A DNA stretch of 64,000 nucleotides from Terracoccus sp. 273MFTsu3.1 (GTDB lineage: Bacteria; Actinomycetota; Actinomycetes; Actinomycetales; Dermatophilaceae): NCBI RefSeq assembly GCF_000383675.1, contig NZ_KB911822.1, positions 372,001 to 436,000 on the forward strand. Reading direction: 5' to 3'. Both the position numbers and the translations under genes were made by a program. This document shows positions 4,508 through 62,531 of the stretch, piece by piece (position 1 is the stretch's first letter; every line of letters begins with the position of its first letter). The notes under the pieces are model-generated. The model was not told the origin of the DNA and ran no database searches. It was given only the letters and a program-made list of their open reading frames with translations.

Positions 4508-5239
4508 ATGGAGACTCCCGGGCGTCCCCGCGTCGTCGTCTACAACCAGGTCAGCGTCGACGGGAAGGTCGTCGGCTTCGACACCCACCCCGACCGCTAC
4601 TACCGCCTCGGCTTCCGATGGTCGTGTGACGCGATCCTCATGGGCAGCACGACCGCCCTCGTCTTCGGGCCGCCGGAGACGAAGGAGGCCCAGCAGCACA
4701 CGCTCCCGCCGCCGCAGCTCCTGCCGGTCGTCCCCGGCTTCGAGACCCTGGTCACCGAGCCCCGTCCTCTCCTCGTCGTCCCCGACAGCCGTGGGGTCGT
4801 GCGCGGCTGGATCCACGCGCTGGCCCAGCCCTGGTACCGCGACGTCGTCGTCCTCGTCACCCGCCACACCCCGCCGGGCTACCTCCGGTACCTCGACCAC
4901 CGCGGCATCGAGCACGTCGAGGCCACCGACCCTGCGACCGACCGGGTGGACCTCGCGGCAGCTCTCGGCCACCTCGCGGCGACCCACGGCGTCCGCCACG
5001 TCCGCACCGACGGCGGCGGGGCCCTGACCGGCGCGCTCCTCGCCGCCGGCCTCGTCGACGAGATCGTCGTCCTGCTCGACCCGGTCGTCTCGAGCGACCC
5101 GGACGGTCAGCGGCTCGTCAGCCTGCCCCGCTCGGGCCCACCCGGCGGCATACCCCTGCGTCTGCGTGACGTCGAGAGCTTCGACGACGGCGCGCTCCTC
5201 CTGCGCTACGCCACCGTCTCGGGGGCGGGAACGTCATGA
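4508..5239 (+). CDS. RibD C-terminal domain / dihydrofolate reductase-like protein
   Basis: This 243-aa protein has the RibD_C fold signature of NADPH-dependent pyrimidine reductases. It starts RVVVYNQVSVDGKVVGF and has a DAILMGSTTA nucleotide-binding turn and a late GVRHVRTDGGGALTGALLAAGLVDEI segment typical of the family. There is no deaminase domain, so it is not a complete RibD. Stand-alone members reduce varied substrates, and its own substrate cannot be read here. It is monocistronic, starts leaderless at 4508 and ends in a perfect palindromic terminator. Confidence 0.8.
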   Translation: METPGRPRVVVYNQVSVDGKVVGFDTHPDRYYRLGFRWSCDAILMGSTTALVFGPPETKEAQQHTLPPPQLLPVVPGFETLVTEPRPLLVVPDSRGVVRGWIHALAQPWYRDVVVLVTRHTPPGYLRYLDHRGIEHVEATDPATDRVDLAAALGHLAATHGVRHVRTDGGGALTGALLAAGLVDEIVVLLDPVVSSDPDGQRLVSLPRSGPPGGIPLRLRDVESFDDGALLLRYATVSGAGTS

Positions 5240-5268
5240 GCCCGCCCTCCACGTGGAGGGCGGGCTCA
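5237..5268. terminator. bidirectional hairpin terminator
   Basis: A perfect 32-nt palindrome with 16-bp arms (TGAGCCCGCCCTCCAC and its complement) begins over the last bases of the RibD-like gene. It serves the convergent gene at 5297-5674 as well. There is no U-run, as usual in actinobacteria. Confidence 0.75.
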
Positions 5269-5296
5269 CGGCGTCCGTGCTCTGGGCGGTGCCGCC

Positions 5297-5674
5297 TCAG
5301 TCGGTCTTGATGAAGCTGAGCAGCATCGACACGAAGGTGATGATGAGGCCGCCGAAGACGGCGTCCCAGAAGAAGTGCTCGACGTGGAAGGGCAGGTCGA
5401 GCTTGCCGGCCAGCCACGACGTCAGCTCGAGCATCAGGGCGTTGACGATGAAGACGAAGAGCCCCAGCGTCAGGATGATGAGCGGCAGCGAGATCAGCTT
5501 GAGAATGGGCTTGATGAAGGTGTTGAGGATGCCGAAGATCAGGGCCACGAGGACGACGGTCCAGACGACCTGACCCGTCGTCCCGCCGCCGAAGGTGATG
5601 CCGGGGATGGCCCACGCGGCGATCCACAGGGCGATGGCGTTGATCACCGTCTGCAGCGCGAAGTTGAGGAGCAT
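5297..5674 (-). CDS. YvlD/phage holin family 4 superfamily membrane protein
   Basis: This 125-aa protein has four predicted helices and the PGI-x-GG pattern after the first helix (AAWAIPGITFGGG), typical of YvlD-like proteins (Pfam Phage_holin_4_2). These are chromosomal membrane proteins often linked to envelope stress and not phage lysis genes. The frame is open to 5704, but the ATG at 5674 gives the usual hydrophobic start MLLNFALQTVINAIALW and avoids overlapping the phosphofructokinase stop. The 4-bp gap suggests co-transcription with that gene. Confidence 0.8.
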   Translation of the reverse strand: MLLNFALQTVINAIALWIAAWAIPGITFGGGTTGQVVWTVVLVALIFGILNTFIKPILKLISLPLIILTLGLFVFIVNALMLELTSWLAGKLDLPFHVEHFFWDAVFGGLIITFVSMLLSFIKTD

Positions 5675-5678
5675 GCGC

Positions 5679-6907: not shown

Positions 6908-6913
6908 TCGGGT

Positions 6914-8071
6914 ATGAGCGACAGCCCTGAGACCGTCAGCGAGAGCGTGACCGAGAGCGCCACCCCGGAGGAGGCGTATGCCGCCGCGCAGGCGTCGGGC
7001 GCCACGGTGCGGCTCCGCGACGTGCTGGCCCAGATGCCCGACTACAAGCCCGGGAAGCCCGCGTCGGCACCCGCCGGCGTTGCGGCGTACAAGCTGTCGT
7101 CCAACGAGAACCCCTACGGTCCGCTCCCGTCGGTGCTCTCGGCGATCGACGACGCGGCTGCGACGGTGAACCGCTACCCGGACATGGCCGTCACGGCGCT
7201 GACCGAGCGCCTCGCGAAGGCGCTCGACGTTCCGGCCGAGTGCATCGCGACGGGCACCGGCTCGGTCGCGGTCCTCGCCCAGATCGTCAACGCCGCGTGC
7301 GACGCGGGTGACGAGGTCGTCTTCGCGTGGCGCTCGTTCGAGGCCTACCCGATCGTCACGCAGCTGGCCGGGGCGAAGCCCGTCATGGTCGGCCTCGACG
7401 AGCAGGCCCGCCACCGCCTCGACGCGATGTTCGCCGCGATCACCGGCCGCACCCGCGTCGTCCTCGTCTGCACTCCCAACAACCCGACCGGGCCGTGCGT
7501 CCACCAGGCCGAGCTCGAGGCCTTCCTCGACAAGGTCCCGAGCGACGTCATCGTCGTCGTCGACGAGGCCTACGTCGAGTTCGTCCGCAACCCCGACGCC
7601 GTGCGCGGGCTCGAGACGTGGCGCCACCGCCCCAACGTCGTCGTCCTGCGGACCTTCTCCAAGGCGTACGGCCTCGCCGGCCTCCGGGTGGGGTATGCCG
7701 TCGCGCACCCACCCGTCGCCGCCGCGCTCCGCAAGACGGCCACGCCCTTCGGCGTCAACTCGGTCGCGCAGGTGGCCGCCATCGCCTCGCTCGACGCGTT
7801 CGACGAGCTCAACGCGCGCGTCGAGTCGCTCGTCGCCGAGCGCGACCGGGTCGTCCGAGCCCTCGGCGACCAGGGCTGGAAGCTTCCGCAGTCCGATGCG
7901 AACTTCGTGTGGTTCCCGCTCGGCGCCGACTCGACGGCCTTCTCGCAGGCGTGTGCCGAGGCCGGCCTGACGGTGCGGCAGTACGGCGACGACGGCGTGC
8001 GCGTCACGATCGGAGAGGTGGACGCGAACTCGCGGCTCATCGAGGTCGCCGAACGCTTCGGGGCACGCTGA
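6914..8071 (+). CDS. hisC: histidinol-phosphate / aromatic amino acid aminotransferase
   Basis: This 385-aa class I/II PLP aminotransferase transfers the amino group of glutamate to imidazole-acetol phosphate or to aromatic 2-oxoacids. Evidence is KLSSNENPYGP near the N-terminus, CTPNNPTGP, the DEAYVEF aspartate motif and the PLP lysine in FSKAYGLAGLRVGYA near residue 246. The frame is open upstream to 6815. The ATG at 6914 is chosen because it begins a normal N-terminus and lies 12 nt from a -10 box. It stands alone, away from other his genes, so the Pat-type aromatic role is as likely as histidine synthesis. Confidence 0.88.
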   Translation: MSDSPETVSESVTESATPEEAYAAAQASGATVRLRDVLAQMPDYKPGKPASAPAGVAAYKLSSNENPYGPLPSVLSAIDDAAATVNRYPDMAVTALTERLAKALDVPAECIATGTGSVAVLAQIVNAACDAGDEVVFAWRSFEAYPIVTQLAGAKPVMVGLDEQARHRLDAMFAAITGRTRVVLVCTPNNPTGPCVHQAELEAFLDKVPSDVIVVVDEAYVEFVRNPDAVRGLETWRHRPNVVVLRTFSKAYGLAGLRVGYAVAHPPVAAALRKTATPFGVNSVAQVAAIASLDAFDELNARVESLVAERDRVVRALGDQGWKLPQSDANFVWFPLGADSTAFSQACAEAGLTVRQYGDDGVRVTIGEVDANSRLIEVAERFGAR

Positions 8072-8100
8072 CCGAGCCGATCGGGGCGACAATGGGCTGA

Positions 8101-8891: not shown

Positions 8892-9655
8892 CGGACATCA
8901 GGACGCACCTGGTCGCCGGGCGGCTGACCGCCGCTCTCGTCGGTCTCGTCGGGGTGCTCCTCGCGTTCCCCATGCTCGCGCTACCGACGCACGCGATCCT
9001 CCAGAAGCCTCCGTATGCCGCCGATCCCGACGCGTCGCCGTTCCGGCTGTCCGTGTGGAGCTGGGGGCACGTCGCCGACACGACGGGCAACACCGACGGC
9101 CAGATCGACGTCGGCAGCCCGACGGGCCTGTTCATCTTCGTCGTGGCCCTTGCCGTCGGCCTCGCCGGCGTCGTCGCATATGCGTTCCGGCCCGGCACCG
9201 ACGGCCGGATCCTCGGTGTGGCGGGACTCGCGTGGGCCGGGTCCCACGTGGTCGGTGGGCTGGGGCACCGGCTGGGCGACACCCTGTCGGGCCTCTTCGA
9301 CGACGGAGACCAGCTCGTCGTCCAGACCCTGCCCGCCGGCTACCTCGAGGTGGCGTCCGCCGCGCTGCTCGTCGTGTCGCTCGGTCTCCTCGTCCTGCGA
9401 CCCCTCGTTGCGTTGGTGAGGTCGGCCGTCGTCCGCGCCGGGGCGCTCGCTCGCCGTTTGTCCGCGCGTGGCGAGACGTCCGACGCGGCCGGCACGACGG
9501 AGCCGGCCACGCCGCGTGTCGGCATCGCGACGATCCGTGACGTGCCCGGGGGCCCCGAGGTCCGGGCTGCCGGGCGGCGCGAGCACGCTGGCACGGGTGT
9601 CGGCTTCTCCGACGACCCGGCCGCCGACCCCGACCGGTTCCGGCCGCCGCGATGA
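8888..9655 (+). CDS. membrane protein of a W-x-W-G paralog cluster, member 2
   Basis: This 255-aa protein has the same plan as its neighbours: helix 1, a loop with PT and VWSWGHVADT, helices 2 and 3, a loop with PAGYLEVAS, helix 4 and a soluble tail containing RVGIATIRDVPGG and VGFSDDP. The GTG start overlaps the stop of member 1 by four bases, and its own stop overlaps the ATG of member 3. The closest family is unknown to me. Conservation of the outside W-x-W-G motif and of the cytoplasmic VGFSD motif suggests the three proteins have equivalent contacts. Confidence 0.72.
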   Translation: MTDIRTHLVAGRLTAALVGLVGVLLAFPMLALPTHAILQKPPYAADPDASPFRLSVWSWGHVADTTGNTDGQIDVGSPTGLFIFVVALAVGLAGVVAYAFRPGTDGRILGVAGLAWAGSHVVGGLGHRLGDTLSGLFDDGDQLVVQTLPAGYLEVASAALLVVSLGLLVLRPLVALVRSAVVRAGALARRLSARGETSDAAGTTEPATPRVGIATIRDVPGGPEVRAAGRREHAGTGVGFSDDPAADPDRFRPPR

Positions 9656-12944: not shown

Positions 12945-12996
12945 CCGCGCCGGCGAGCGGGCCCCGGGCACACGGCATACGCCCTCTCGCGACGGC

Positions 12997-13613: not shown

Positions 13614-14768
13614 GTGAGCGACAAGGTTGTCGCCGAGCTGCAGGAGCCGACCCCCGCGGTCGGCGACGGTGGCCCGGACATGATCCAGCTGCTGACCCCC
13701 GAGGGTCAGCGCGTGTCCCATCCCGACTACGACAAGTACGTCGCGGACCTGACGCCCGAGGACCTGCGGAGCTTCTACCGCGACCTCGTCCTCATCCGTC
13801 GGCTCGACGCCGAGGGCTACGCGCTCCAGCGCCAGGGTGAGCTCGGCCTGTGGCCCAGCCTGCTCGGCCAGGAGGCCGCCCAGGTCGGCTCCGGTCGTGC
13901 GCTCAAGCCGCACGACTTCGTCTTCCCGACCTACCGCGAGCACGGCGTCGGCTTCGTCCGTGGCATGGACCCGCAGAGCTCGCTGCAGCTCTTCCGCGGC
14001 GTCAGCCAGGGCGGCTGGGACCCGCAGGAGAACAACTTCCACCTCTACACGATCGTCATCGGAGCCCAGGCGCTGCACGCCACCGGCTACGCGATGGGCG
14101 TGCGGATGGACGGCAACGTCGGCACCGGCGACCCCGACCGCGACACCGCGGTGATCTGCTACTTCGGCGACGGCGCCTCCTCGCAGGGTGACGTCAACGA
14201 GGCGTTCGTCTACGCGGCGAGCTTCGACGCGCCGGTCGTCTTCTTCTGCCAGAACAACCAGTGGGCCATCTCCGAGCCGGTCGAGAAGCAGACACGCATC
14301 CCGCTCTTCCAGCGCGCCCGCGGCTTCGGTTTCCCCGGCGTCCGCGTCGACGGCAACGACATCCTGGCCACGTATGCCGTGACGCAGCACTGCCTCGACG
14401 AGGCCCGCAACGGCAACGGCCCGCTCCTCATCGAGGCCTACACGTACCGCATGGGTGCGCACACGACGGCCGACGACCCGACGAAGTACCGCGTCTCGGC
14501 GGAGGTCGAGGAGTGGAAGTTCCGCGACCCGATCCTGCGCCTCAAGACCCTCCTCGCGCACGAGGGCATGGCCGACGAGGCCTTCTTCGCCCGGATCGAC
14601 GAGGAGGCCGACCAGTTCGCCGCCGAGCTGCGCGAGGGCTGCGTCACGATGGAGACGATGGCCGGCGAGACGATGTGGGACCACGTCTACGCCGAGGACC
14701 ACCCCGTCATGGAGGCGGAGCGTGCCGCCTACCTCGCCTACAAGGCGAGCTTCGAGGAGGCGAACTGA
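13614..14768 (+). CDS. pdhA: 2-oxoacid (pyruvate or branched-chain) dehydrogenase E1 alpha
   Basis: This 384-aa thiamine diphosphate enzyme decarboxylates a 2-oxoacid together with E1 beta. The ThDP motif runs from GDGASSQGDVNEAF to CQNNQWAIS (GDG...NN). The phosphorylation-loop region RMGAHTTADDPTKYR is typical of the alpha subunits of both PDH and branched-chain complexes. Start GTG 13614 has a GAAGGAG site. The stop overlaps the E1 beta ATG by one base. Substrate is uncertain: in mycobacteria the closest style of operon is branched-chain specific, so bkdA is an equally fair name. Confidence 0.92.
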   Translation: MSDKVVAELQEPTPAVGDGGPDMIQLLTPEGQRVSHPDYDKYVADLTPEDLRSFYRDLVLIRRLDAEGYALQRQGELGLWPSLLGQEAAQVGSGRALKPHDFVFPTYREHGVGFVRGMDPQSSLQLFRGVSQGGWDPQENNFHLYTIVIGAQALHATGYAMGVRMDGNVGTGDPDRDTAVICYFGDGASSQGDVNEAFVYAASFDAPVVFFCQNNQWAISEPVEKQTRIPLFQRARGFGFPGVRVDGNDILATYAVTQHCLDEARNGNGPLLIEAYTYRMGAHTTADDPTKYRVSAEVEEWKFRDPILRLKTLLAHEGMADEAFFARIDEEADQFAAELREGCVTMETMAGETMWDHVYAEDHPVMEAERAAYLAYKASFEEAN

Positions 14769-15775: not shown

Positions 15776-17230
15776 ATGGCAATCAAGACGTTCAACCTGC
15801 CCGACCCCGGTGAGGGGCTCGTCGAGGCCGAGATCGTGGAGTGGAAGGTGTCGCCCGGCGACACCGTCAAGGTCAACGACATGGTCCTCGAGATCGAGAC
15901 CGCCAAGTCGCTCGTCGAGCTGCCCATCCCGTGGGCCGGCACCGTCAAGGAGCTGCTCGTCGAGGTCGGCCAGACCATCGACGTCGGCACGCCGATCATC
16001 TCGATCGACGACGGCAAGGGTGGCGACGACGCTCCCGCCGCCGTGCCGTCGATCCCGGGCGAGAAGGCCGCTCCGGCCGAGGGCGCCGCCGGTTCCGAGG
16101 CGATCCTCGTCGGCTACGGCGCCAAGGCCGGCGCCACGGCTCGTCGTGCCCGCAAGGGCATGGCCGCCGCACCGGTCGCCGCGGCGCCGACCGAGACCGA
16201 GCAGGTCGCGGCTGCCGCACCCGTCCCCGAGTCGGCCGCGCCGGCTCCCCGGGTCGAGTCGCCGGCCCCCGCCGTCCCGATCGCGGCCGCTGCCGGTGGC
16301 CGTCCCAAGGCGAAGCCGCCGGTCCGCAAGCTCGCCAAGGACCTCGGCATCGACCTCGCGTCCGTGACACCGACCGGGGCCGACGGCATCATCACGCGCG
16401 ACGACGTGACGAACCACGCGAGCGGCGCCGCCGTGAACGGCGTTGCAGCACAAGCTGACTCCGCCGTCGGCGTGGCCGCCCCGGCCATCGCGCGTATGCC
16501 GTTCGGTGCGGGTGAGCGCGAGACGCGCACACCGATCAAGGGCGTCCGCAAGATGACGGCGCAGGCGATGGTCGGATCGGCCTTCACCGCGCCGCACGTC
16601 ACCGAGTGGATCACCATCGACGTGACGAAGACGATGGAGCTCGTCGATCGCCTCAAGGGCAGCCGCGAGTTCACGGATGTCAAGGTCACGCCGCTGCTCG
16701 TGCTCGCCAAGGCGCTCGTCCTCGCGGTCAAGCGCAACCCGGGCATGAACGCGACGTGGGACGAGGCCGCCCAGGAGATCGTCCAGAAGAACTACGTCAA
16801 CCTCGGCATCGCCGCGGCGACCCCGCGGGGCCTCATCGTCCCGAACATCAAGGACGCCCACGCCATGACGATGCTCGAGCTGGCGCAGGCCATCGGCCAG
16901 CTCACGGCCACGGCTCGCGAGGGGCGCACCCAGCCGGCCGAGATGTCGGGCGGCACGTTGACGATCACCAACGTCGGCGTCTTCGGCGTCGACAGCGGCA
17001 CCCCGATCATCAACCCGGGGGAGTCGGCGATCGTGTGCTTCGGCGCGATCCGCAAGCAGCCGTGGGTCGTCACCGATGCCGACGGCAACGACGAGATCGC
17101 GATCCGCCACGTCACGCAGCTCGCGGTGAGCTTCGACCACCGTCTCATCGACGGCGAGCTCGGGAGCCGCTTCCTGTCCGACCTGGCAGCCATCCTCGCC
17201 GACCCGGCCCAGGCTCTCGTCTGGGGCTGA
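15776..17230 (+). CDS. pdhC: dihydrolipoamide acyltransferase, E2 component
   Basis: This 484-aa core enzyme transfers the acyl group from lipoyl-lysine to CoA. Domains in order: a lipoyl domain with the EIETAKSLVELP lysine loop (about 35-47), an Ala/Pro-rich linker, a peripheral-subunit-binding domain (KPPVRKLAKDLGIDLASVTPTGADGIITRDDV), a second linker and the catalytic domain, which ends with the active-site SFDHRLIDGELG. An AAGGG site precedes the start. No E3 (lipoamide dehydrogenase) gene follows, so the complex must use one encoded elsewhere. Confidence 0.93.
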   Translation: MAIKTFNLPDPGEGLVEAEIVEWKVSPGDTVKVNDMVLEIETAKSLVELPIPWAGTVKELLVEVGQTIDVGTPIISIDDGKGGDDAPAAVPSIPGEKAAPAEGAAGSEAILVGYGAKAGATARRARKGMAAAPVAAAPTETEQVAAAAPVPESAAPAPRVESPAPAVPIAAAAGGRPKAKPPVRKLAKDLGIDLASVTPTGADGIITRDDVTNHASGAAVNGVAAQADSAVGVAAPAIARMPFGAGERETRTPIKGVRKMTAQAMVGSAFTAPHVTEWITIDVTKTMELVDRLKGSREFTDVKVTPLLVLAKALVLAVKRNPGMNATWDEAAQEIVQKNYVNLGIAAATPRGLIVPNIKDAHAMTMLELAQAIGQLTATAREGRTQPAEMSGGTLTITNVGVFGVDSGTPIINPGESAIVCFGAIRKQPWVVTDADGNDEIAIRHVTQLAVSFDHRLIDGELGSRFLSDLAAILADPAQALVWG

Positions 17231-17332: not shown

Positions 17333-17350
17333 ACCCCCACGATTGGGGGT
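17333..17350. promoter_or_regulatory. perfect inverted repeat, candidate operator
   Basis: ACCCCCA-CGAT-TGGGGGT is a perfect 7-bp inverted repeat upstream of the response regulator. It resembles the C-run/G-run layout of CsoR-type copper operators, but no CsoR gene is in the window, so the regulator is a guess. An octamer GTATGCCG overlaps its right end. Confidence 0.35.
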
Positions 17351-17449
17351 ATGCCGACCCCACGGGTGGCGCGTGCGCCACGCCGCACGCCGCGCCACGA
17401 TGGTGGACGTCCCGATCGAGCGATCGCACGTGAGCAGTGGAGGTCCGTC

Positions 17450-22538: not shown

Positions 22539-22541
22539 GGA

Positions 22542-22593
22542 GCGTATGCCGTGTCGTCGCCCTCCCCGCGGAGGATCACGACACGGCATACGC
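22542..22593. terminator. long hairpin with the GTATGCCG octamer in both arms
   Basis: GCGTATGCCGTGTCGT (22542-22557) pairs perfectly with 22578-22593, and an inner CCTCC/GGAGG stem extends it. It begins four bases after the multicopper oxidase stop and ends 33 bases before the next start. It may end or attenuate the transcript. Confidence 0.65.
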
Positions 22594-22626
22594 CGTGATC
22601 CACCACTGGGAAGGAAAGGCACTGCC

Positions 22627-25829: not shown

Positions 25830-25907
25830 TGCGGCCGCGCTGGGACCCGTGCGTGCGGCCACCTCCCAGCGCGGCTGGGCCGGACGGCATACGCCCTCTC
25901 TCACGTC

Positions 25908-26005: not shown

Positions 26006-28821
<2,816 letters not shown>

Positions 28822-44372: not shown

Positions 44373-44404
44373 CCGAGCCCGCGGCATACACCACCCGCCT
44401 GAAG

Positions 44405-49722: not shown

Positions 49723-51819
49723 ATGCCAACCCTGCAGCGAGATGGTCTCGCCGACCCGCGGACGGGCCCCGCCGCCCCGTCCTCCGGGCGCGTCGCGGTC
49801 GTCCTCGCCGCCGTCGTCGCGGTCGGTCTGCTGGCGAGCGTGGTCGCTGCCCGGTACACCGGCGCGGCCGCCCCCCTGCCCGGCGGCCTGACCGACGCGG
49901 GCCCGGTCGTCCGCTGGGCCCTCCCCCTCGTCCGCGTCGTCCACGACGTCGCCGCCTCGCTCACCATCGGCTCGCTCCTCCTCGCCGCCACGATGATTCC
50001 CGGCCGCACTCGCGCCGAGAGCGCGGCGCTCGACGAGCCACGCCGCGCCGCTGCCCTCCGGGTCGCCACCGCTGCGGCGTTCGTCTGGGCGCTCGCGGGG
50101 GCCGTCGGCGTCGTCTTCACGTTCGCCGACGCCGCGGGCATGCCGCTCGGCGACCCGCTCTTCGGAGGCAATCTCGCCGGGTCGGTGTGGTCGATCGAAC
50201 CGCTCCGGGTCGGGCTCATCAGCGCGGTCGCCGCGTTCGTCGTCGCCTCGGTCGCCGCTGTGGCTCGCTCTCGTGCGGTCGCGCTCGCGCTCACCGTCGT
50301 CTCGGCGTTCGGCGTGCTCGTCCTGGGCCTCGCGGGCCATGCCGGCGGGTCGGCCGACCACGAGACGGCTGTCAACGCGATCGCCGCCCACATGCTGAGT
50401 GCCGCAGTGTGGGTCGGTGGGCTCCTCGCGCTGATCGTGCTCCGTCGTCCCCTGGGTGGCGCGCTCGGCGTCGTCGCCCGTCGCTACTCGACCGTCGCCC
50501 TCTGGTGCTTCGTCACCCTCGGCGTCTCCGGCGTCATGTCGGCCACGACCCGGCTCGGCTCGTGGTCCGACCTCGCGACGCCCTACGGCGTCCTCGTCCT
50601 CGTCAAGGTCCTGGCCTTCGCGGTCCTGGGGCTCGCAGGCTTCTGGCACCGGCGCGTCACGCTCGACCGCATCGACGAGACCGGCACCTCGGGTGCCGGC
50701 ACTGCCGTCCCCGAGGGCTCGCGCAGGCTGCGGAGCCGGCTCTTCGTGCGGCTCGCGGTCGCCGAGACCCTCGTCATGGCGCTCGCGTTCGGCGTCGCGA
50801 CCGCGCTCGCGCGCAGCGAGCCCCCCGTTCCCGAGACGGTGGCCGACCCGAGCGCCGCCCTCTCGCTGACCGGCTATCCCGCTCCGCCCGCCCCCACGGC
50901 GATGTCGTGGCTCACGGCCTGGCGGGTCGAGTGGCTCTTCCTCGCCACGGGGCTGCTGGCGATCGGGCTCTACCTGGCCGGGGTCGTGCGCCTGCGCCGC
51001 CGTGGCGACGCCTGGCCGGTGATGCGCACCGTGAGCTGGGTCGTGGGCTGGGTCCTCTTCGTCTACGCCACCAACGGCGTGCTCGGCATCTATGGGCGCG
51101 TCGCCTTCTCGTGGCACATGACGCTGCACATGCTCGAGGCGATGGTCGTCCCGATCTTCCTCGTGCTCGGGGCGCCGGTGACGCTCGCGCTGCGCACCGT
51201 CCGGGGGCGCCGCGACGGCACCCTCGGCCCGCGCGAGATGCTTCTCTCGCTCATCCACTCGCGGTTCCTCGCCGTCGTCGGCAACCCGATCTTCGCGGCC
51301 GTCTTCTTCTTCATGAGCCTCGTCGTCTTCTACTGGACCGGCCTGTTCCAGCTGGCCCTGCAGACGCACACGGGGCACCTGCTCATGACCGCGCACTTCG
51401 TCCTCACGGGCTATCTCTTCGCGTGGGTGCTCGTCGGGGTCGACCCGGGCCCCAAGCGCTGGAGCCCTGCGCTGCGGCTCGTCGTGCTCTTCGCGACGAT
51501 CTCCTTCCACGCCTTCTTCGGCGTCGCGATGATCAGCGGCACGACGCTCCTCGGGGGCGACTTCTTCCCGACCGTCGCCATCCCGTGGGTCACCGACTCG
51601 CTCGCGGACCAGCGCTACGGCGGGGGTGTCGCGTGGGCCATCGGCGAGCTGCCGAGCCTCGTGCTCGCGCTCACGGTCGCGCTGCAGTGGTTCCGCACCG
51701 ACAGTGCGGAGTCGGTGCGCCAGGACCGTCGGGCCGACCGTGACGGCGACGCCGAGCTCACGGCATACAACGAGCGGCTGGCCGCGCTGGCCCGCCGCGA
51801 CGAGGGCTCGCGCCGCTGA
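49723..51819 (+). CDS. CopD-CtaG fusion membrane protein (copper / cytochrome oxidase assembly)
   Basis: This 698-aa protein has about 15-16 helices. The first half resembles CopD: ALPLVRVVHDVAASLTIGSLLLAA, AIAAHMLSAAVWVGGLLALIVL and the RYSTVALWCFVTLGVSG helix. The second half is a caa3-CtaG domain with FSWHMTLHMLEAMVVPIFLVLGAPVTLALR, THTGHLLMTAHFVLTGYLFAW and FHAFFGVAMISGTTLL, rich in membrane histidines and methionines for copper. Fused CopD-CtaG proteins are known in actinobacteria and are thought to deliver copper to cytochrome oxidase. Confidence 0.9.
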   Translation: MPTLQRDGLADPRTGPAAPSSGRVAVVLAAVVAVGLLASVVAARYTGAAAPLPGGLTDAGPVVRWALPLVRVVHDVAASLTIGSLLLAATMIPGRTRAESAALDEPRRAAALRVATAAAFVWALAGAVGVVFTFADAAGMPLGDPLFGGNLAGSVWSIEPLRVGLISAVAAFVVASVAAVARSRAVALALTVVSAFGVLVLGLAGHAGGSADHETAVNAIAAHMLSAAVWVGGLLALIVLRRPLGGALGVVARRYSTVALWCFVTLGVSGVMSATTRLGSWSDLATPYGVLVLVKVLAFAVLGLAGFWHRRVTLDRIDETGTSGAGTAVPEGSRRLRSRLFVRLAVAETLVMALAFGVATALARSEPPVPETVADPSAALSLTGYPAPPAPTAMSWLTAWRVEWLFLATGLLAIGLYLAGVVRLRRRGDAWPVMRTVSWVVGWVLFVYATNGVLGIYGRVAFSWHMTLHMLEAMVVPIFLVLGAPVTLALRTVRGRRDGTLGPREMLLSLIHSRFLAVVGNPIFAAVFFFMSLVVFYWTGLFQLALQTHTGHLLMTAHFVLTGYLFAWVLVGVDPGPKRWSPALRLVVLFATISFHAFFGVAMISGTTLLGGDFFPTVAIPWVTDSLADQRYGGGVAWAIGELPSLVLALTVALQWFRTDSAESVRQDRRADRDGDAELTAYNERLAALARRDEGSRR

Positions 51820-52079: not shown

Positions 52080-52512
52080 CCCAGGCGTCGGCGTCGTCCA
52101 TCGGCGTCTCGAGGTAGACCTCCCGACAGGGGCCGTATGCCGTGAGCCCCGTCGCGTCGACCTGCGTCGCGAGTGCCTGCCAGGTGTCCCCGATCGTCGC
52201 CATCGACCCGCGGTGGATCACCGTGACGGCCTGCGCGACGCCCGGCAGGTCGGCGACCTCGGCGCCCTCGACGTCGACGGCGTCCAGGGTCGTCGGCACC
52301 CCGACGCCCCACGTCGTGCCCTGGGCGTCGCCGTCGTACCAGGCGACCGACGGCGTGCGCGGCTGCACGCCGGCCGCCGAGAGGCCGCGGAGGAGCCGGT
52401 CGAACGCCGGCCCGATCGTCGCCCCCAGCTCGCCCACGTCGGCGACGCGGCCCGTCACCTGCGCCAGCCGGACGCCCGGCAGCTCCTTGGTCACGTACTC
52501 CAGCTCGGGCAT
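52051..52512 (-). CDS. GyrI-like / AraC effector-binding domain protein
   Basis: This 153-aa protein is a stand-alone effector-binding fold. MPELEYVTKELPGVRLAQVTGRV begins the first repeat, and the second half has ADLPGVAQAVTVIHRGSMATIGDTWQALATQV and YGPCREVYLE, with the conserved glutamate near the end. GGAGGG precedes ATG 52512. Upstream in frame, about 15 codons read RLQAIEARLRTVEKEGT, like the linker helix of MerR regulators that carry this domain, so the gene may be a MerR that lost its DNA-binding part. Confidence 0.82.
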   Translation of the reverse strand: MPELEYVTKELPGVRLAQVTGRVADVGELGATIGPAFDRLLRGLSAAGVQPRTPSVAWYDGDAQGTTWGVGVPTTLDAVDVEGAEVADLPGVAQAVTVIHRGSMATIGDTWQALATQVDATGLTAYGPCREVYLETPMDDADAWVTELQQPVR

Positions 52513-53537: not shown

Positions 53538-55420
53538 CGCCCGGCGGCGGGGTCGAGACCGCCTCGCTGCGCGCCCGCGTCAAGGTCCGGGCGCCCGAGC
53601 TCGTCGGCCGCGGCTGGCTCAACACCGGCGGACGGTCGCTGTCTCTCGCCGACCTGCGCGGTCGCGTCGTCGTCCTCGACTTCTGGACCTTCTGCTGCGT
53701 CAACTGCCTCCACGTGCTCGACGAGCTGCGGCCCGTCGAGGCCCAGTTCCCCGACGCGCTGACGATCATCGGCGTCCACTCGCCGAAGTTCGAGCACGAG
53801 GCCGACGCCGACGCGCTGGCCGCCGCCGTCGAGCGGTATGCCGTCCACCACCCCGTGCTCGACGACCCCGAGCTCGTGACGTGGAAGGCGTATGCCGCCC
53901 GCGCGTGGCCCACGCTCGTCGTGCTGGACCCCGAGGGCTACGTCGTCGCGTCGATGTCGGGGGAGGGCCACGGCCCGGGTCTCGCCTCCCTCGTCACGGA
54001 GCTCGTCGAGGAGCACCGCGCCAAGGGCACGCTCCAGCCCGGCGACGATCCCTACGTCCCGCCGCCGTCTCCGGACACCGCGCTGCGCTTCCCCGGCAAG
54101 GCCGTCGCCCTGCCCGACGGGTCGTTCGTCGTCAGTGACACGGCGGACCACGAGGTCGTGCACCTCGAGGACGACCTCGAGACCGAGCGGGCCCGATGGG
54201 GCGGCAAGGGCGTCCTCAACGAACCGCAAGGGGTCCTGCTCGCGACGCCCGACGTGGCCGAGCGGCTCGGCATCGACCTCCTCGTCGCGGACTCCGTCAA
54301 CCACCAGGTCAAGGGAATCCGCTTCTCCGACGGCTCGATCCACGTCGTGGCCGGCACGGGGGACCAGCTGCGCGAACGCACCGGCGGCGGGCCCGCCCTC
54401 GAGCAGGCGCTCTCGACCCCGTGGGACCTCGCCTGGCTCGGCGACCGGCTCGTCATCGCGATGGCGGGCACGCACCAGCTGTGGGCCTGGACCCCCGGCA
54501 AGACCCTCGAGGAGGGTCGCGTCGAGGTCGTCGGTGGCACGTCCAACGAGGGGCTCGTGGACGGAGCGGCACCCGAGGCGTGGTTCGCCCAGCCGTCCGG
54601 TCTCGCGACCTCTGCCTCCGGCGACCGCGTCTGGGTGGCCGACTCCGAGACCTCCGCGCTGCGGTCCGTGACGGTCGGCGCCGACGGCGGACTCGTCGTC
54701 GAGACCCACGTCGGCACGGGCCTCTTCGACTTCGGTCACCGGGACGGCGACGCCGCCGACGCGCTGCTCCAGCACCCGCTCGGCGTCACCGAGCTGCCCG
54801 ACGGCTCGGTCGCCGTCAGCGACACGTACAACGGCGCCGTCCGACGCTTCGACCCCGTGACGGGCCAGGTGTCGACCTTGGCCCAGGGACTCGCCGAGCC
54901 GAGCGACGCCGTCGTCGAGCACGACCCCGAGACCGGCGAGGTGCGCCTCGTCGTCGTCGAGTCCGCTGCCCATCGCCTCATCCGCGTGGCCCTGCCCGAG
55001 GCCGCGCAGCGCGTCGAGGGTCCCGCCCACCGCACCCAGCGGCCTCCGACTCCCTTGCCCGCCGGGGAGGTCGCCCTCGAGGTGACGTTCGTGCCGCCGA
55101 CGGGGCAGAAGCTCGACCTGCGCTGGGGCGACCCGACGCGCCTCAACGTGTCCGCGACGCCCGATGCGCTCCTCGTCTCCGGGGCCGGGCGGGCCGAGGG
55201 CCTGACCCGGACGCTCGTCCTGCGTGACGGCATCGGGTCGGGCACGCTGCACATCTCCGTGCAGGCCGCCGCGTGCGACGGCGACCCCGAGACGGGCGAG
55301 GTTCCCGAGCACGCCGCGTGCCACCTCTTCCAGCAGGACTGGGGGATCCCGGTCACCCTCGACCCGACCGCCGATGCCACACTGACTCTCGACCTCCGCG
55401 GGGTCCAGGCCGGAAGCTAG
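53534..55420 (+). CDS. NHL-repeat thioredoxin-like protein (NHLRC2-type)
   Basis: This 628-aa protein has an N-terminal TlpA-like thioredoxin domain with active site WTFCCVNC (Cys55, Cys58), followed by an NHL beta-propeller (PDGSFVVSDTADHEVV, LNEPQGVLL, ADSVNHQVKGI, QHPLGVTELPDGSVAVSDTYNGAVRRFDP) and a C-terminal beta domain. This is the architecture of NHLRC2. The client is unknown. No signal peptide is seen, so it should be cytoplasmic. Start GTG 53534 overlaps the hydrolase stop. Confidence 0.9.
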   Translation: MTPGGGVETASLRARVKVRAPELVGRGWLNTGGRSLSLADLRGRVVVLDFWTFCCVNCLHVLDELRPVEAQFPDALTIIGVHSPKFEHEADADALAAAVERYAVHHPVLDDPELVTWKAYAARAWPTLVVLDPEGYVVASMSGEGHGPGLASLVTELVEEHRAKGTLQPGDDPYVPPPSPDTALRFPGKAVALPDGSFVVSDTADHEVVHLEDDLETERARWGGKGVLNEPQGVLLATPDVAERLGIDLLVADSVNHQVKGIRFSDGSIHVVAGTGDQLRERTGGGPALEQALSTPWDLAWLGDRLVIAMAGTHQLWAWTPGKTLEEGRVEVVGGTSNEGLVDGAAPEAWFAQPSGLATSASGDRVWVADSETSALRSVTVGADGGLVVETHVGTGLFDFGHRDGDAADALLQHPLGVTELPDGSVAVSDTYNGAVRRFDPVTGQVSTLAQGLAEPSDAVVEHDPETGEVRLVVVESAAHRLIRVALPEAAQRVEGPAHRTQRPPTPLPAGEVALEVTFVPPTGQKLDLRWGDPTRLNVSATPDALLVSGAGRAEGLTRTLVLRDGIGSGTLHISVQAAACDGDPETGEVPEHAACHLFQQDWGIPVTLDPTADATLTLDLRGVQAGS

Positions 55421-55423: not shown

Positions 55424-56356
55424 GTGCAACCCGTCCGGCAGGTCGTGACGAGACCAGCGGACGACAAGGCGGCACACGTGGCACGACAGGCATCAGGCGG
55501 CGGTGGACGCTCCGTCCTCTCGGCGGTGTGCGGGCTGCTGGCCATCGTGCTGCTGCCCGTGTCGCTCGTCGGCTTCTGGGCGTCGGTCATGCTGACGCGC
55601 ACCGACGTCTTCGTCGAGGAGCTGCGGCCGGTCGTCACCAAGCCCCAGGTCCAGGAGGCCCTCACCGACGGCGTCGTCCAGGGCGTCCTCGGTGCGGTCC
55701 AGCTCCAGCCGGCGATCGAGAAGGCCCTCGAGGCGCCGATCCGGACGCAGGCCGCAGCCCTCGTCGCGAGCCCTCAGGTCACCACGGCCTGGGCCACCGG
55801 GATCCGGGCGCTCCACACCCAGTTCATCGCCGTCATGGAGGGTCGCGCCGACACGAAGCTCGACGACCAGGGGCGTGTCTCGGTGCGCCTGACGATCCCG
55901 GTCCCGGCCCTGACGTCGACGCTCGAGCAGGCCGGGGTCCCCGACGCCGGGTCGATCGCGCCCGTCGTGACGATTCCCCTCGTCAAGGCCACCGACCTGC
56001 AGAAGGCGCAGGCGGCATACCGCATCGCCGACGCGTGGGGCCCGTGGGGGCCACTCGTCGTGGGTGCCCTGGCGCTGCTGTCGATCGCGCTCGCGCGGCG
56101 CTGGCGCACGGCGACCACGCTCGTCGCCATCGGCTGGATCGCGACCGCCCTCGCGCTCGCCCTCGTCCTCATGGTGTCGCGCGAGCCGCTCATGCGTCGC
56201 GTCGACCCCGAGGTGGCGCGCACCATCGCCGACGCCGCCTACGGCCTGGCGGCGCGCAACCTCTACTACGAGATCGCGATCGCCGTCGGTGTCGGGGTCG
56301 TCATGCTCGTCGTCTCGGCCGTGTCGCTCGCGTTCGGGCGTCGCCGCTCCCGCTGA
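55424..56356 (+). CDS. membrane protein with extracellular domain, unknown
   Basis: This 310-aa protein has a basic N-terminus, then helix 1 (VLSAVCGLLAIVLLPVSLVGFWASVML). An outside domain of about 150 residues follows, with VFVEELRPVVTKPQVQEALTDGVVQ and QLQPAIEKALEAPIRTQAAALVASPQV. Three C-terminal helices complete it. The layout is common in actinobacterial proteins of unknown function. The GTG at 55424 is four bases after the previous stop, which suggests the same operon. Confidence 0.7.
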   Translation: MQPVRQVVTRPADDKAAHVARQASGGGGRSVLSAVCGLLAIVLLPVSLVGFWASVMLTRTDVFVEELRPVVTKPQVQEALTDGVVQGVLGAVQLQPAIEKALEAPIRTQAAALVASPQVTTAWATGIRALHTQFIAVMEGRADTKLDDQGRVSVRLTIPVPALTSTLEQAGVPDAGSIAPVVTIPLVKATDLQKAQAAYRIADAWGPWGPLVVGALALLSIALARRWRTATTLVAIGWIATALALALVLMVSREPLMRRVDPEVARTIADAAYGLAARNLYYEIAIAVGVGVVMLVVSAVSLAFGRRRSR

Positions 56357-56929: not shown

Positions 56930-58309
56930 GTGAGCCGGACCCACCCCGACGCCGCGCCCCGCACGGCGGCCGAGATCGACGCCGCGACCCCCTCCGACCG
57001 GGACCGCTGGGCCGACACGCTCCGCGTCGGGTCGCTCGTCGTCGTCATCCTCGGACACTGGCTCATGGTCGCGATCACCCCCGACGGCCAGATCACGAAC
57101 GCCCTCGCGGTCGTGCCGTCCCTCCAGCCGCTGACCTGGCTGCTCCAGGTCATGCCGCTCTTCTTCCTCGTCGGGGGCGTCGCCCACGCCCACACGCTCG
57201 AGTCGCTCGAGCGTCGTCACCCGGACACCCGTGGGAGGTATGCCGCGTTCTTCCGGGCGCGGGCGACGCGCCTGCTGCGACCCACCCTCGCCTTCCTCGC
57301 CGTCTGGGTCGCACTCGGCGTCGTCGCCGACCTGTCGGGCCTGACGTCGCGTCCCGGCGACGCGGGGCGGCTCGCGCGAGACGCGCTCGTCATGGTGCCG
57401 CAGCTGCTGTGGTTCGTCGGGATCTACCTCGGAGCCTGCGCCTTCGCCCCGCTCATGCGTGACCTCCACCGGAGGTGGGGTCTCGTCGTCCTCGGCGTGC
57501 TCGTCGTGCTGGCGTGCGTCGTCGACGCAGTGCGCTTCGGCGGCGGGCCCGAGCTCGTCGGCAACCTCAACTTCGCCCTCGTCTGGCTGGCGCTGCACCA
57601 GCTCGGGTTCGCCTGGCGTGACGGCCTGCTCACGACCGGTCGGGGGTGGGCGATGACGTTCGTGGGCTTCTCCGCGATGGGTCTGGCTGTCGCGTTCGGC
57701 CCCTACCCGACGTCGATGGTGGGCCTGCCGGGGGAGGCCGTCTCGAACATGGCGCCGCCCACGGCGGCCCTGCTCGCCCAAGGCATCGGCATCTGCGGCC
57801 TCGCCGTCGTCCTGCGGCCGGCCATGGCACACGCGCTCGCCCGGCCCCGCGTCTGGCGGGCGGTGGTGCTGTCGGGCCCCTTCGCGATGACGGCCTTCCT
57901 GTGGCACCTCACGGCGCTCATGACGGTGCTCCTCGCGATGCGGGCGCTGGGGATCGTCCAGCCGGCCGTCGCGTCCTGGCAGTGGTGGCTGTCCCGGCCC
58001 CTCCTCTTCGCCGTGCTCGCCGTCGTGACGGCGTTGCTCGTCGCCGTCTTCGTCCGCTTCGACCGCGGGCCGCGCTCGGTGGCCGGCGCCTCGCCGGAAC
58101 CGCGCGGCTGGGTCGACCCCGTCGCCGCCGTGTCGGCGGGCGTGCTCTTCTTCGGGATCCTCATCGTCTCGATCGTCGGCGTCGACGTGCTCGGCAACCG
58201 ACCCGTCTTCTTCCTCGTCGGTGACGTCACCCCGATCGTCGGCTTCGTCGTCCTCGCTGCCGGCCTGCTCCTGCTGCGCACGACGCGCCCCCGCGCCCCC
58301 CGCACCTGA
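56930..58309 (+). CDS. membrane acyltransferase (acyltransferase 3 family)
   Basis: This 459-aa protein has about eleven helices. The start WADTLRVGSLVVVILGHWLMVA carries the conserved membrane histidine. PLFFLVGGVAHA and FFRARATRLLRPTLAF are the second conserved blocks of acyltransferase-3 proteins that O-acylate sugars or lipids outside the membrane. LWHLTALM supplies a further histidine. The acceptor is unknown. The GTG start has no obvious Shine-Dalgarno. Confidence 0.85.
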   Translation: MSRTHPDAAPRTAAEIDAATPSDRDRWADTLRVGSLVVVILGHWLMVAITPDGQITNALAVVPSLQPLTWLLQVMPLFFLVGGVAHAHTLESLERRHPDTRGRYAAFFRARATRLLRPTLAFLAVWVALGVVADLSGLTSRPGDAGRLARDALVMVPQLLWFVGIYLGACAFAPLMRDLHRRWGLVVLGVLVVLACVVDAVRFGGGPELVGNLNFALVWLALHQLGFAWRDGLLTTGRGWAMTFVGFSAMGLAVAFGPYPTSMVGLPGEAVSNMAPPTAALLAQGIGICGLAVVLRPAMAHALARPRVWRAVVLSGPFAMTAFLWHLTALMTVLLAMRALGIVQPAVASWQWWLSRPLLFAVLAVVTALLVAVFVRFDRGPRSVAGASPEPRGWVDPVAAVSAGVLFFGILIVSIVGVDVLGNRPVFFLVGDVTPIVGFVVLAAGLLLLRTTRPRAPRT

Positions 58310-59586: not shown

Positions 59587-60213
59587 GTGCAGACGTATGC
59601 CGTCGACGGGCGCGAGCTCCCGCTCCGCATCGCCGGCGACCCGGCCCTCGAGCTCGTCAACACCCTTGCGCGCTGGTCCGGGACCTCGACCGACCAGGTC
59701 GACCACCTCCACGACTACGACGACCTCGTCGTCTGGGCCCGGGAGTGCGGCCTCGTCGACGAGGTCGCGGCGGCCCGCCTCCGACGGTCGGCACGACGCG
59801 ACCGGGTGACGGCCGGCGCCGTCCTCCGGGAGGTGCGGAGGCTGCGCCGCGACGTCCACGACCTCGCCGTCGGCCTCGGGCGGCGTGCGGCCCTGGCGCG
59901 GGTGTCGACGCTCGCCGTCGAGGCCCGCCAGTCCCAGTCGCTCACGGCCACCGCGGATGCCGTCACCTGGCGCTTCACGCGCGACGCAGGGCTGCACGAG
60001 CCGCTGTATGCCGTCGCGCAGGCCGCCGCGGCCCTGCTGACGTCCGACGCGAGCGGGCACGTCTCTGCCTGCCCGGGGGACGGGTGCGGCGCGGTCTTCC
60101 TCAACCCGTCCGGCCGACGGCGCTGGTGCATCATGTCCGTCTGTGGCAACCGGGCCAAGGCGCGGGCCTGGGCGGCTCGACAGCACGCGTCCCGGGACCC
60201 GGCCCCCTCCTGA
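59587..60213 (+). CDS. CGNR zinc-finger (ABATE domain) transcriptional regulator
   Basis: This 208-aa protein has an N-terminal ABATE domain (RIAGDPALELVNTLARW...) and a C-terminal zinc ribbon with CPGDGCGAVFLNPSGRRRWCIMSVCGNRAKA, containing the hallmark CGNR. It is thought to bind DNA and respond to stress in actinobacteria, but ligands are unknown. The GTG 59587 is chosen from the leaderless spacing and the family N-terminus. Confidence 0.9.
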   Translation: MQTYAVDGRELPLRIAGDPALELVNTLARWSGTSTDQVDHLHDYDDLVVWARECGLVDEVAAARLRRSARRDRVTAGAVLREVRRLRRDVHDLAVGLGRRAALARVSTLAVEARQSQSLTATADAVTWRFTRDAGLHEPLYAVAQAAAALLTSDASGHVSACPGDGCGAVFLNPSGRRRWCIMSVCGNRAKARAWAARQHASRDPAPS

Positions 60214-60289
60214 CCGACCGCACCACCGCACACCGCAGCGTCACTCCCGTGACCGGGCCGGACGGCATACGCACGCCGTCGTGGAACGA

Positions 60290-60325
60290 CGAGGCGCCCG
60301 CTCCCGCGTGGGGAGGGGCGCCTCG
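60290..60325. terminator. bidirectional hairpin between CGNR and fadE genes
   Basis: CGAGGCGCC and GGCGCCTCG, extended by partly paired C/G runs, form a hairpin 20 nt before the dehydrogenase stop. Confidence 0.7.
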
Positions 60326-60344
60326 AGGTGAGGGGTGCTGCGCG

Positions 60345-62207
60345 TCAGAACGCGGACTCGGGCACGTCCATGAGGTCGTTGTCGATGGCCTCGGCGATGG
60401 CGCGCTCGGCGGCGAGCTTCGGCAGGACGTTCTTGGCGTAGAAGGAGGCCGCCGCGACCTTGCCGCGGTAGAAGTCGGCGTCCTTGCCGGACGCGCCGCC
60501 GGCGAGGGCCGCCTGCGCGACCTCGGCCTGACGGAGCAGGAGCCAGCCGACGACGAGGTCACCGGCAGCGAGGAGCAGACGAGTCGTGTTCTGGCCGACC
60601 TTGTAGAGGTTGGCCGTCTCGCCGCCCATCCGCGGGTCGCTCTTCATGGCGTCGCCGATCATGTGGCCGACGATGCCCTGGACGTCCTCGAGGGCCCGAC
60701 CGAGCAGCTCGCGCTCGGTGTCGAGCGAGCCGCCGAGGTCCTTCGCGAACTCCTGAATCTGTCCGGCGACGTGCTGCAGGGCCTGGCCCTTGTCGCGGAC
60801 GATCTTGCGGAAGAAGAAGTCGAGTCCCTGGATGGCGGTCGTGCCCTCGTAGAGGGTGTCGATCTTCGCGTCGCGGACGTACTGCTCGATGGGGTAGTCC
60901 TGCAGGAAGCCCGAGCCGCCGTAGGTCTGGAGCGACTCGGTGCCGAGCAGCACCCAGGCGCGCTCGGAGCCGAGGCCCTTGACGAGGGGCAGCATGAGGT
61001 CGCTGATCCGGTTGGCGACCTCGGCCGCCGACCCCTTCTCGAGCGGGGCGGCCGGGTTGCCGGCCTGCGCCTGGTTGACGGCGTCCTGCTGGCTCGCGGT
61101 GTAGATGACGAGCGCGCGCAGGCCCTCTGCATACGCCTTCTGGAGCATGAGCGAGCGGCGGACGTCGGGGTGGTGCGTGATGGTGACCCGCGGGGCGGCC
61201 TTGTCGGTCATCTGCGTCAGGTCGGCGCCCTGGACGCGCTCCTTGGCGTACTCGAGGGCGTTGAGGTAGCCGGTCGAGAGCGTGGCGATCGCCTTGGTGC
61301 CGACGAACATCCGGGCGTTCTCGATGACCTTGAACATCTGCGCGATGCCGTCGTGGACGTCGCCGAGGAGGGTGCCGACAGCCGGCTCGTGCTCGCCGAA
61401 GGTGACCTCGCACGTCGTCGAGACCTTGAGGCCCATCTTGTGCTCGACGTTGGTCACGTGGGCGCCGTTGCGCTCGCCCAGCTCGCCGGTCTCGAGGTCG
61501 ACGTGGAACTTCGGGACGATGAAGAGGGAGAGGCCCTTCGTGCCGGGCCCGGCCCCCTCGGGGCGGGCGAGGACGAAGTGCACGACGTTGTCGACCATGT
61601 CGGACTCGGCAGAGGTGATGAACCGCTTGACGCCCGTGATGTGCCACGTGCCGTCGGGCTGCTGGACGGCCTTGGTGCGGCCCGCACCGACGTCGGAGCC
61701 GGCGTCGGGCTCGGTGAGCACCATCGTCGTGTGCCAGGCCCGGTCGACGATGTGCTTGGCGAGCTTCTTCTGGTCGTCGGTGCCGAGGTGCCACAGCAGG
61801 TTGGCGAACGAGTAGCTCGCGGTGAACATGTGGATGGCCGGGTTGGCGCCGCAGACCATCTCGGCGACCGACCAGCGCAGCGAGGCCGGGACGACCATGC
61901 CGCCGAGCTCGGCGGGGACGTCGAGGTTGCCCCAGTCGCCGTCGACGTAGGCCTTGAAGGACTTCTTGAACGACTCCGGCATCGTCACCGACTGGCTGGC
62001 CGGGTCGTAGACGGGCGGGTTGCGGTCGCTGTCGAGGAGGCTGTCGGCCAGCTCGTTCTCAGCGAGGCGCGAGACCTCGCGGAGGATGTCCTTGGCGGCG
62101 TCGACGTCGACGTCGGCGTAGATCCCGGTGCCGAGGACGTCCTGACGGTTGAAGACCTCGAAGAGGTTGAACTCGAGGTCACGCACATTGCTCTTGTAGT
62201 GGCCCAT
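60345..62207 (-). CDS. acyl-CoA dehydrogenase, FadE5-like
   Basis: This 620-aa FAD enzyme of beta-oxidation is much longer than the ~380-aa standard. The N-terminus [19 protein letters not shown] and the extra C-terminal helical domain are typical of mycobacterial FadE5. Motifs are [51 protein letters not shown] and [15 protein letters not shown], which contains the catalytic glutamate region. The frame is open to 62270, but ATG 62207 matches the family start and has GGAGGG upstream. FadE5 types act on a broad range of acyl chain lengths. Confidence 0.93.
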
Positions 62208-62480
62208 CCGGGGACCCTCCACGTTCTGTCGCTCGTCGTGCGTCCGCGCTGTCGTCGGCGGGCGCGCCAAGTTACTGGCCGGTCACTTCCATGATGCTAC
62301 TCACGGGTAACGATCGCAAGGGGGAGAGGTCACGGTTCCGCCACGAGGGGCCCCGGGGCGTATGCCGTCCGGCCCGGCACGTGCGCCACGCACCCTCGCC
62401 CGGGCGACCGGCAACTACCGGCTCGGCAACGAGCGCTGACGGCGGAGCCACCGGAGGTCGGCCGCGGCCCGGGCGCCGGC

Positions 62481-62531
62481 CGCACGGCATACGTGCTCGC
62501 ACGGCATTCGTGCTCGGACGGCACACGTGCT
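62481..62531. repeat. three tandem 17-bp hairpin-forming repeats
   Basis: CGCACGGCATACGTGCT, CGCACGGCATTCGTGCT and CGGACGGCACACGTGCT follow each other without gaps. The first two can form a small GCACG/CGTGC hairpin. They lie in the 387-bp gap 62208-62594, which has no supported gene and also holds a GTATGCCG octamer at 62360. Confidence 0.7.

Follow-up and report, generated by a model that had tools for sequence, protein, structure and literature searches.

Why should one short word be written again and again into an ordinary stretch of actinobacterial chromosome? The stretch, hereafter the window, comprises 64,000 nucleotides of Terracoccus sp. 273MFTsu3.1 (family Dermatophilaceae; contig NZ_KB911822.1, positions 372,001 to 436,000), and the word is the octamer GTATGCCG. 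By exact matching it is present 37 times, 22 of them forward and 15 reverse; dinucleotide shuffles yield 0.78 copies on average and never more than 4, and a third-order Markov model predicts 1.9. A preliminary description of the window had given the same number and strand split and a G+C content of about 72% (measured, 71.7%), all of which stand, with an expectation of roughly two copies under independence; 36 of its 37 coordinates are exact and one is off by a single base (41557, given there as 41558). It had also called the octamer strictly conserved and had placed about ten copies outside genes, above the non-coding share. Both claims hold: TATGCC occurs 38 times on both strands, 37 of them within GTATGCCG, and 10 of the 37 copies lie in the 10% of the window that is intergenic by our own gene calls. 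The base following the word is a pyrimidine (T or C) in 35 of the 37 copies.

The enrichment extends to the whole genome (4.94 Mb, 18 contigs), which holds 2,244 copies of GTATGCCG, 1133 on one strand and 1111 on the other, and only 116 and 141 of the word read backwards. Detailed tests were made in a 400-kb sample around dnaA. It contains 216 copies (154 coding, 60 intergenic, 2 straddling a boundary), about 20-fold the 10.9 expected under a third-order Markov model, at densities of 0.44 per kb in genes and 1.14 per kb between them. Within genes the 154 copies compare with 7.9 (maximum 13) in 30 synonymous-codon shuffles, again about 20-fold; between genes the 60 copies compare with 0.9 (maximum 3) in Markov resamplings, about 70-fold. 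Four further word-rich genomes show 10 to 20-fold enrichment in genes and 18 to 75-fold between them. Shuffles and Markov models rule out chance or base composition as the cause, and the proposal of a genome-wide word kept by selection or drive is upheld by an enrichment far over the Markov models and strongest between genes.

In genes the word is built from rare codons, TAT and GCA, as had been noticed in the window and as the codon counts of the 400-kb sample confirm. At G-TAY-GCC-G sites, which are able to form GTATGCCG, TAT makes up 86 of the 113 codons, compared with 85 of 2,199 elsewhere; at xCG-GCN-TAC sites GCA accounts for 50 of 91, compared with 3 of 188 in other contexts before TAC. 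These internal codon controls, together with the synonymous shuffles, rule out codon-pair bias, and the intergenic enrichment is the stronger one. Because two distinct synonymous routes lead to one word, a single mutational hotspot is disfavoured as well; in the 400 kb the single-base neighbours of GTATGCCG are little raised, none exceeding about 2.5-fold over Markov expectation and several falling below it. The reversed word GCCGTATG, intended as a control, is itself raised in the Terracoccus genome (4.6-fold in genes, 4.4-fold between them); among other word-rich genomes it is raised 3.8-fold and 2.5-fold, respectively, in G111 and 1.7-fold and 7.5-fold (1 copy) in G087, and is not raised in G173 and G133.

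GTATGCCG is conserved between species as a whole word. Over 40 kb around comEC, the Terracoccus genome was compared with seven congeners 83-93% identical to it; its 21 copies in 7 relatives make 147 cells, which are not independent owing to shared ancestry, and 112 of these could be aligned. Of the 112, 93 (83%) preserve the word intact; the corresponding figures are 43.9% for other 8-mers and 99 of 223 for non-word 8-mers around TAYGC or GCRTA. The third base of GCA is kept in 18 of 21 cases inside GTATGCCG and in 70 of 301 outside, and that of TAT in 43 of 48 inside and 17 of 35 outside.

Dense GTATGCCG, by which we mean at least 120 copies per Mb, is restricted to one family. All nine genomes of the genus carry 1,423 to 2,358 copies, the lowest number belonging to an assembly that is 74% complete. 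Among 186 genomes of the family, representing 53 genera, 107 are dense (141 to 1,356 per Mb) and come from 30 genera; 10 more have 50 to 120 copies per Mb and 69 fewer than 50. Carriers include Terrabacter, Intrasporangium calvum and Flexivirga caeni; no copy was present in the loci examined of Piscicoccus and Arsenicicoccus, and three genera (g4, g33 and g42) each mix rich and poor species. A sample of the order comprised 396 genomes, and none of the 362 drawn from 19 other families reaches 120 copies per Mb, the highest standing at about 80.

Some relatives use other words. Within the family, 24 genomes poor or middling in GTATGCCG were sampled (4 at 100 kb and 20 at 40 kb, five of the latter extended), and six have a clear alternative: CGAAGGGG in G072, G061 and G100, GTACGGCG/GTACGACG in G092, and GGATGCCG in G178 and G042. 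Measured over 100 kb each, CGAAGGGG is raised 4.6-5.9-fold over synonymous shuffles in genes and reaches 3.8-4.4 per kb between them; the corresponding values are 4.9-5.5-fold and 1.9-3.3 per kb for GGATGCCG, and 3.4-fold and 2.3 per kb for GTACGGCG. In G072 and G092 the two strands bear the alternative words alike. Family-wide, GGATGCCG attains 686-1,248 copies per Mb in seven genomes (genera g9, g15 and g51), the next highest value being about 382, and G044 and G045 hold both GTATGCCG and GGATGCCG in quantity.

When 29 family genomes and one outgroup are placed on an rpoB tree, these alternatives fall as shifts. GTATGCCG occurs in both main branches, GGATGCCG at two separated places and CGAAGGGG in one clade; the GTACGGCG genome G092 is sister to a GTATGCCG genome, and loss of GTATGCCG is seen in G016 and G122, each of which has word-rich sisters. 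Several deep forks are modestly supported, and hence no exact number of shifts is given. Weaker words, possible further dialects, were seen in G010 (GTACGCCG/GTACGACG), G022 (GGCGTACG), G033 (GTATGCGG) and G016, where GGTCTACG is perhaps one (23 copies in genes against 5.1 expected, 4.5-fold over synonymous shuffles in 80 kb, and 6 between genes). The shuffle test has a flaw: in G022, GACGTACG, a word overlapping the main one of that genome, is also raised 5.2-fold. Two candidates, GATGCCGA in G162 and CGGACGCG in G184, were rejected as nearly confined to genes and just 2.2 to 2.5-fold over synonymous shuffles. Aligned without gaps, GTATGCCG, GGATGCCG, GTACGRCG and CGAAGGGG all have A at position 3 and G at positions 5 and 8, a common set that may represent the contact core of a receptor.

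Other repeats were met in the same genomes. G022, which has no GTATGCCG, carries dispersed palindrome-like repeats around CCGCATTTCGTGCAC...GTGAACGAAATGCGG, with copies about 62-64 bp apart (L091:1814-1996; L092:11033-11134 and 18336-18436). G016 has an intergenic word, GTGAATCCGCG, in 8 copies in 40 kb (L123-L124, L246-L247), and long direct repeats within 400 bp were not found in these loci. The palindrome CCCTAGGG stands at 8 places in 100 kb of G072 (L047-L051), mostly inside the larger palindrome GCAAAACCCTAGGGTTTTGC, with a both-strand count of 16 against about 0.4 expected. In G111 (L072-L076) there are 36 overlapping copies of GGGGGGGG, all non-coding and on the minus strand, which probably represent a single long G run or a small number of them.

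The anatomy of the word in the Terracoccus genome was examined in the 400-kb sample and the window. Flanks were compared for 70 intergenic and 183 coding copies, those of the window included. Intergenic copies show a weak preference for G at -6, A at -5 and GC directly before the word, and for T, C/G, T, G and G after it, roughly GATGGC before and TSTGG after; coding copies show chiefly the following base and the codon rhythm. Of neighbouring copies no more than 80 bp apart, 9 of 11 pairs in the 400 kb are inverted, and such pairs hold a minority of all copies. Five chosen inverted pairs, one of them in the window (22538-22596), are predicted to fold into hairpins of -33.7 to -47.4 kcal/mol (z -5.2 to -7.7). 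Around dnaA, dnaN and parAB the leading strand carries 103 copies and the lagging strand 113, and skew is absent. Copies are distributed somewhat more evenly than chance would give (coefficient of variation 0.87, P 0.02).

Copies are scarce in DNA of low G+C content. In 2-kb windows across the 400 kb and the 64-kb window, there are 2 copies in 9 windows below 66% G+C (0.11 per kb), 34 in 44 windows at 66-70% (0.39 per kb) and 217 in 179 windows at 70% or above (0.61 per kb). One low-GC island (L020:13951-20000, contig C1, 394-400 kb) encodes a C5 DNA methylase, AIPR, DUF4420 and Z1, a defence-like gene set, and is free of GTATGCCG from 393254 to the end of the examined stretch.

In the window, the copies found by exact search are distributed as follows, with genes from our own calls and protein families from Pfam; each line is a copy of GTATGCCG unless described otherwise.

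5146..5153, reverse: in gene 4508-5239 (RibD_C)
6976..6983, forward: in aminotransferase gene, read Tyr-Ala
7693..7700, forward: in the same aminotransferase gene as the 6976 copy
9013..9020, forward: coding, gene 8888-9655
12973..12980, reverse: intergenic
14372..14379, forward: in E1 dehydrogenase gene
16494..16501, forward: in 2-oxoacid dehydrogenase acyltransferase gene, read Met-Pro
17349..17356, forward: intergenic
17852..17859, reverse: coding, antisense, gene 17515-17943
22544..22551, forward: intergenic, left arm of inverted pair
22584..22591, reverse: intergenic, right arm of inverted pair
22538..22596, forward: hairpin from the inverted pair, where gene 20316-22538 (multicopper oxidase) ends; predicted fold -40.1 kcal/mol, z -6.47; putatively terminator-like
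25885..25892, reverse: intergenic
27367..27374, reverse: in MFS transporter gene, read Tyr-Ala
28446..28453, forward: in TetR regulator gene
29732..29739, reverse: coding, antisense, gene 29569-30246
32893..32900, reverse: coding, antisense, gene 30951-35618
36461..36468, forward: coding, gene 36273-36890
37322..37329, forward: coding, gene 36957-38402
38306..38313, forward: coding, gene 36957-38402
39359..39366, forward: in Nramp transporter gene
39990..39997, reverse: intergenic
41557..41564, forward: coding, gene 41218-42303
42882..42889, reverse: coding, antisense, gene 42341-43078
43937..43944, forward: in MFS gene
44382..44389, reverse: intergenic
46604..46611, forward: coding, antisense, MarR gene
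51761..51768, reverse: coding, antisense, CopD/CtaG gene
52135..52142, forward: coding, antisense, gene 52051-52512
53836..53843, forward: in NHL/thioredoxin-like gene
53890..53897, forward: in the same NHL/thioredoxin-like gene as the 53836 copy
56013..56020, reverse: coding, antisense, gene 55526-56356
57238..57245, forward: in acyltransferase gene
59595..59602, forward: coding, gene 59587-60213
60006..60013, forward: coding, gene 59587-60213
60263..60270, reverse: intergenic
62360..62367, forward: intergenic
62485..62492, reverse: intergenic

These calls, made without a standard gene finder, give 55 genes, 30 of which were scanned against Pfam; SbcC/D, phosphofructokinase, parts of 2-oxoacid dehydrogenase, transporters and regulators are among the matches, and the window is ordinary chromosome. 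It contains one tRNA, and Rfam gave no match in it at gathering scores.

What, then, is the word for? Judging from sequence, we consider it likely that GTATGCCG is a DNA uptake sequence, a label of self-DNA for transformation via ComEA/ComEC and the Tad/Flp machinery; among the functions put forward in the preliminary description, this one fits best. In this view the transformation machinery would include a DNA receptor at the cell surface, for which a minor pilin of the Tad/Flp pilus (TadE/TadF-like pilins) or ComEA would be candidates. The receptor would bind DNA bearing the word, ComEC would then import it and recombination with the chromosome would follow, and DNA of the same species would thereby be preferred in uptake. 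Copies of the word would spread and be repaired because the fragments bearing it would be those imported; a drift in receptor preference would be followed by the whole genome and give rise to dialects, and words would decay where uptake or its specificity was lost. To our knowledge, uptake sequences have so far been found in only two Gram-negative families. With rather less assurance, though on balance in its favour, we propose that the present word belongs to a third, independently evolved system and the first in Gram-positives, read by a Tad/Flp-pilus or ComEA receptor and not by a type IVa minor pilin, with at least four dialects (GTATGCCG, GGATGCCG twice, GTACGRCG and CGAAGGGG) and repeated losses.

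By analogy, the measured enrichment, inverted repeats and dialects match the traits that excerpts of the literature ascribe to uptake sequences (PMC12616744, PMC3630211), and high copy number, presence in coding and non-coding DNA and on both strands, dialects among relatives and uptake genes in the host are likewise found here. Uptake sequences are, in addition, commonly arranged as inverted repeats serving as terminators and are scarce in newly acquired DNA; the figures to set beside this are the 9 of 11 inverted close pairs, which account for a minority of the copies, and the 0.11 against 0.61 per kb, which comes mainly from two islands and runs along a composition gradient. Besides ComEC, the Terracoccus genome encodes a ComEA in which SLBB and helix-hairpin-helix domains are present, and a tad cluster with T2SSE, two T2SSF, TadE and Tad proteins. 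In the actinobacterium Micrococcus luteus, which has comEA and comEC homologues, transformation needs Flp/Tad pili (PMC4322843, PMC6370729, both in excerpt). In the family, ComEC is matched in 180 of 186 genomes and TadE in 181. Since these genes are as common in genomes without GTATGCCG as in those with it, they permit the uptake reading without proving it; uptake itself, the receptor and any link between word and com or tad genes are what we infer.

Several observations weigh against an uptake sequence, the first being that the presence of the machinery does not follow that of the word. ComEC was not matched in six genomes (G024, G059, G130, G137, G177 and G181), all of which bear GTATGCCG, five of them densely; they are drafts, 58-95% complete and in 30-760 contigs, and assembly gaps may explain the missing gene. 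PilM, of the type IV pilus that serves the Neisseria system, is found in only 7 of the 186 genomes. No convincing substitute was found in 14 of the 24 sampled word-poor or middling genomes, where 40 kb could miss a sparse word. The scarcity in low-GC DNA derives from two islands and a single further window, and the gradient of density through 66-70% G+C means that composition may play a part. We know of no uptake or transformation in this family, nor of any such sequence in Micrococcus luteus, the competent model actinobacterium. A literature search for natural transformation together with Intrasporangiaceae, the NCBI family of Terrabacter, found nothing; in titles and the opening lines of abstracts on uptake sequences in actinobacteria or Gram-positives, no such word in actinobacteria was recognised, and a text search for the octamer GTATGCCG gave, among the matches listed, titles on unrelated subjects. 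Should the uptake reading be wrong, the error most likely lies in the reader of the word being an intracellular DNA-binding protein and not a surface receptor.

One form of that error would be a chromosome-organising or nucleoid-protein site, at which a DNA-binding protein condenses, tethers or marks the chromosome and selection favours even coverage. The somewhat even spacing, equal use of strands, scarcity in low-GC DNA and presence throughout the sampled genome would suit it, but a site essential to the chromosome would not be expected to shift to other words within genera, to be lost from single species (G016, G122) or to form inverted hairpin pairs, and we hold it to be unlikely. The absence of strand skew in the 400 kb around the origin disfavours two other readings. 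A recombination hotspot of Chi type, recognised by RecBCD, AddAB or AdnAB and guarding self DNA during break repair, would share with GTATGCCG the octamer length, the logic of a self-marker, variation between lineages and a copy number of the same order, Chi of Escherichia coli having about a thousand copies per genome; about three-quarters of these lie on the leading strand, however, as against 103 of 216 here, and strongest enrichment between genes and mostly inverted close pairs are unfavourable to an oriented signal, which makes such a hotspot quite improbable. The segregation site entertained in the preliminary description, a polarity motif of KOPS or SRS type for FtsK, would likewise be short, over-represented and genome-wide, but motifs of this kind are strongly strand-skewed, and we give it hardly any credence.

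The other suggestion made there, a methylase-related or HIP1-like element, which a DNA methyltransferase would generate or maintain by way of mutation bias or mismatch repair, also fares badly. HIP1 of cyanobacteria (GCGATCGC) is an octamer too, occurs about once per 1000 bases and is tied to methylases (PMC4390886, in excerpt), and GTACGCCG is depleted in Terracoccus genes (39 copies against 64 expected), as though converted to GTATGCCG. HIP1 is, however, palindromic (same excerpt) and GTATGCCG is not, the word has dialects, and in genes it arises both by a transition (TAC to TAT) and by a transversion (GCC to GCA). Moreover, when 35 genomes, 16 of them rich in GTATGCCG, were searched for PF01555, PF02384 and PF00145 at E 0.001, the word-rich G108 (4,724 copies) and G116 (1,336 copies, one contig) had no match to these three families, other methylase families not having been searched. 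A HIP1-like origin seems very improbable.

If GTATGCCG is an uptake sequence, it invites comparison with the two established kinds. The uptake signal sequences (USS) of Pasteurellaceae have weaker flanks around their core. Like GTATGCCG, they have a short enriched core (a 9-mer) and subtypes, and their receptor is likewise only predicted (PMC12616744, in excerpt); unlike it, they belong to another phylum, and we noticed no likeness of sequence. The DNA uptake sequences (DUS) of Neisseriaceae resemble the present system in the use, thousands of times over, of a word that is short and non-palindromic, in inverted pairs and in dialects one or a few bases apart; they differ in phylum and envelope, in the pilus (PilM being rare here) and in the core, which here spans 8-9 bases. 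The AT-DUS 10-mer has about 1,900 copies per genome, and every DUS dialect retains a CTG core (PMC3630211, in excerpt), which forms no part of the core of GTATGCCG. AT-DUS (AT before GCCGTCTGAA) and GTATGCCGT have ATGCCGT in common, by chance or not; with its intergenic flank, GTATGCCGT nearly has ATGCCGTCTG in common with the Neisseria AT-DUS. As for Micrococcus luteus, its comEA/comEC and Tad/Flp genes are of the same kinds as in the Terracoccus genome, but the term 'uptake sequence' is absent from PMC4322843.

Whatever its function, a conserved word with about 2,000 copies and lineage-specific variants is a strong and unexplained feature of these genomes. Were the uptake reading true, it would be the first uptake-sequence system known outside Neisseriaceae and Pasteurellaceae, both Gram-negative, and sequence-specific uptake would have a third origin, one within a Gram-positive phylum and using a different pilus. 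These soil bacteria would then be predicted to be naturally transformable, and the word would serve as a ready-made tag in the engineering of actinobacteria that resist genetic work. The shifts of dialect and the losses within one family would also provide a natural series in which to find the receptor and to test why bacteria label their DNA.

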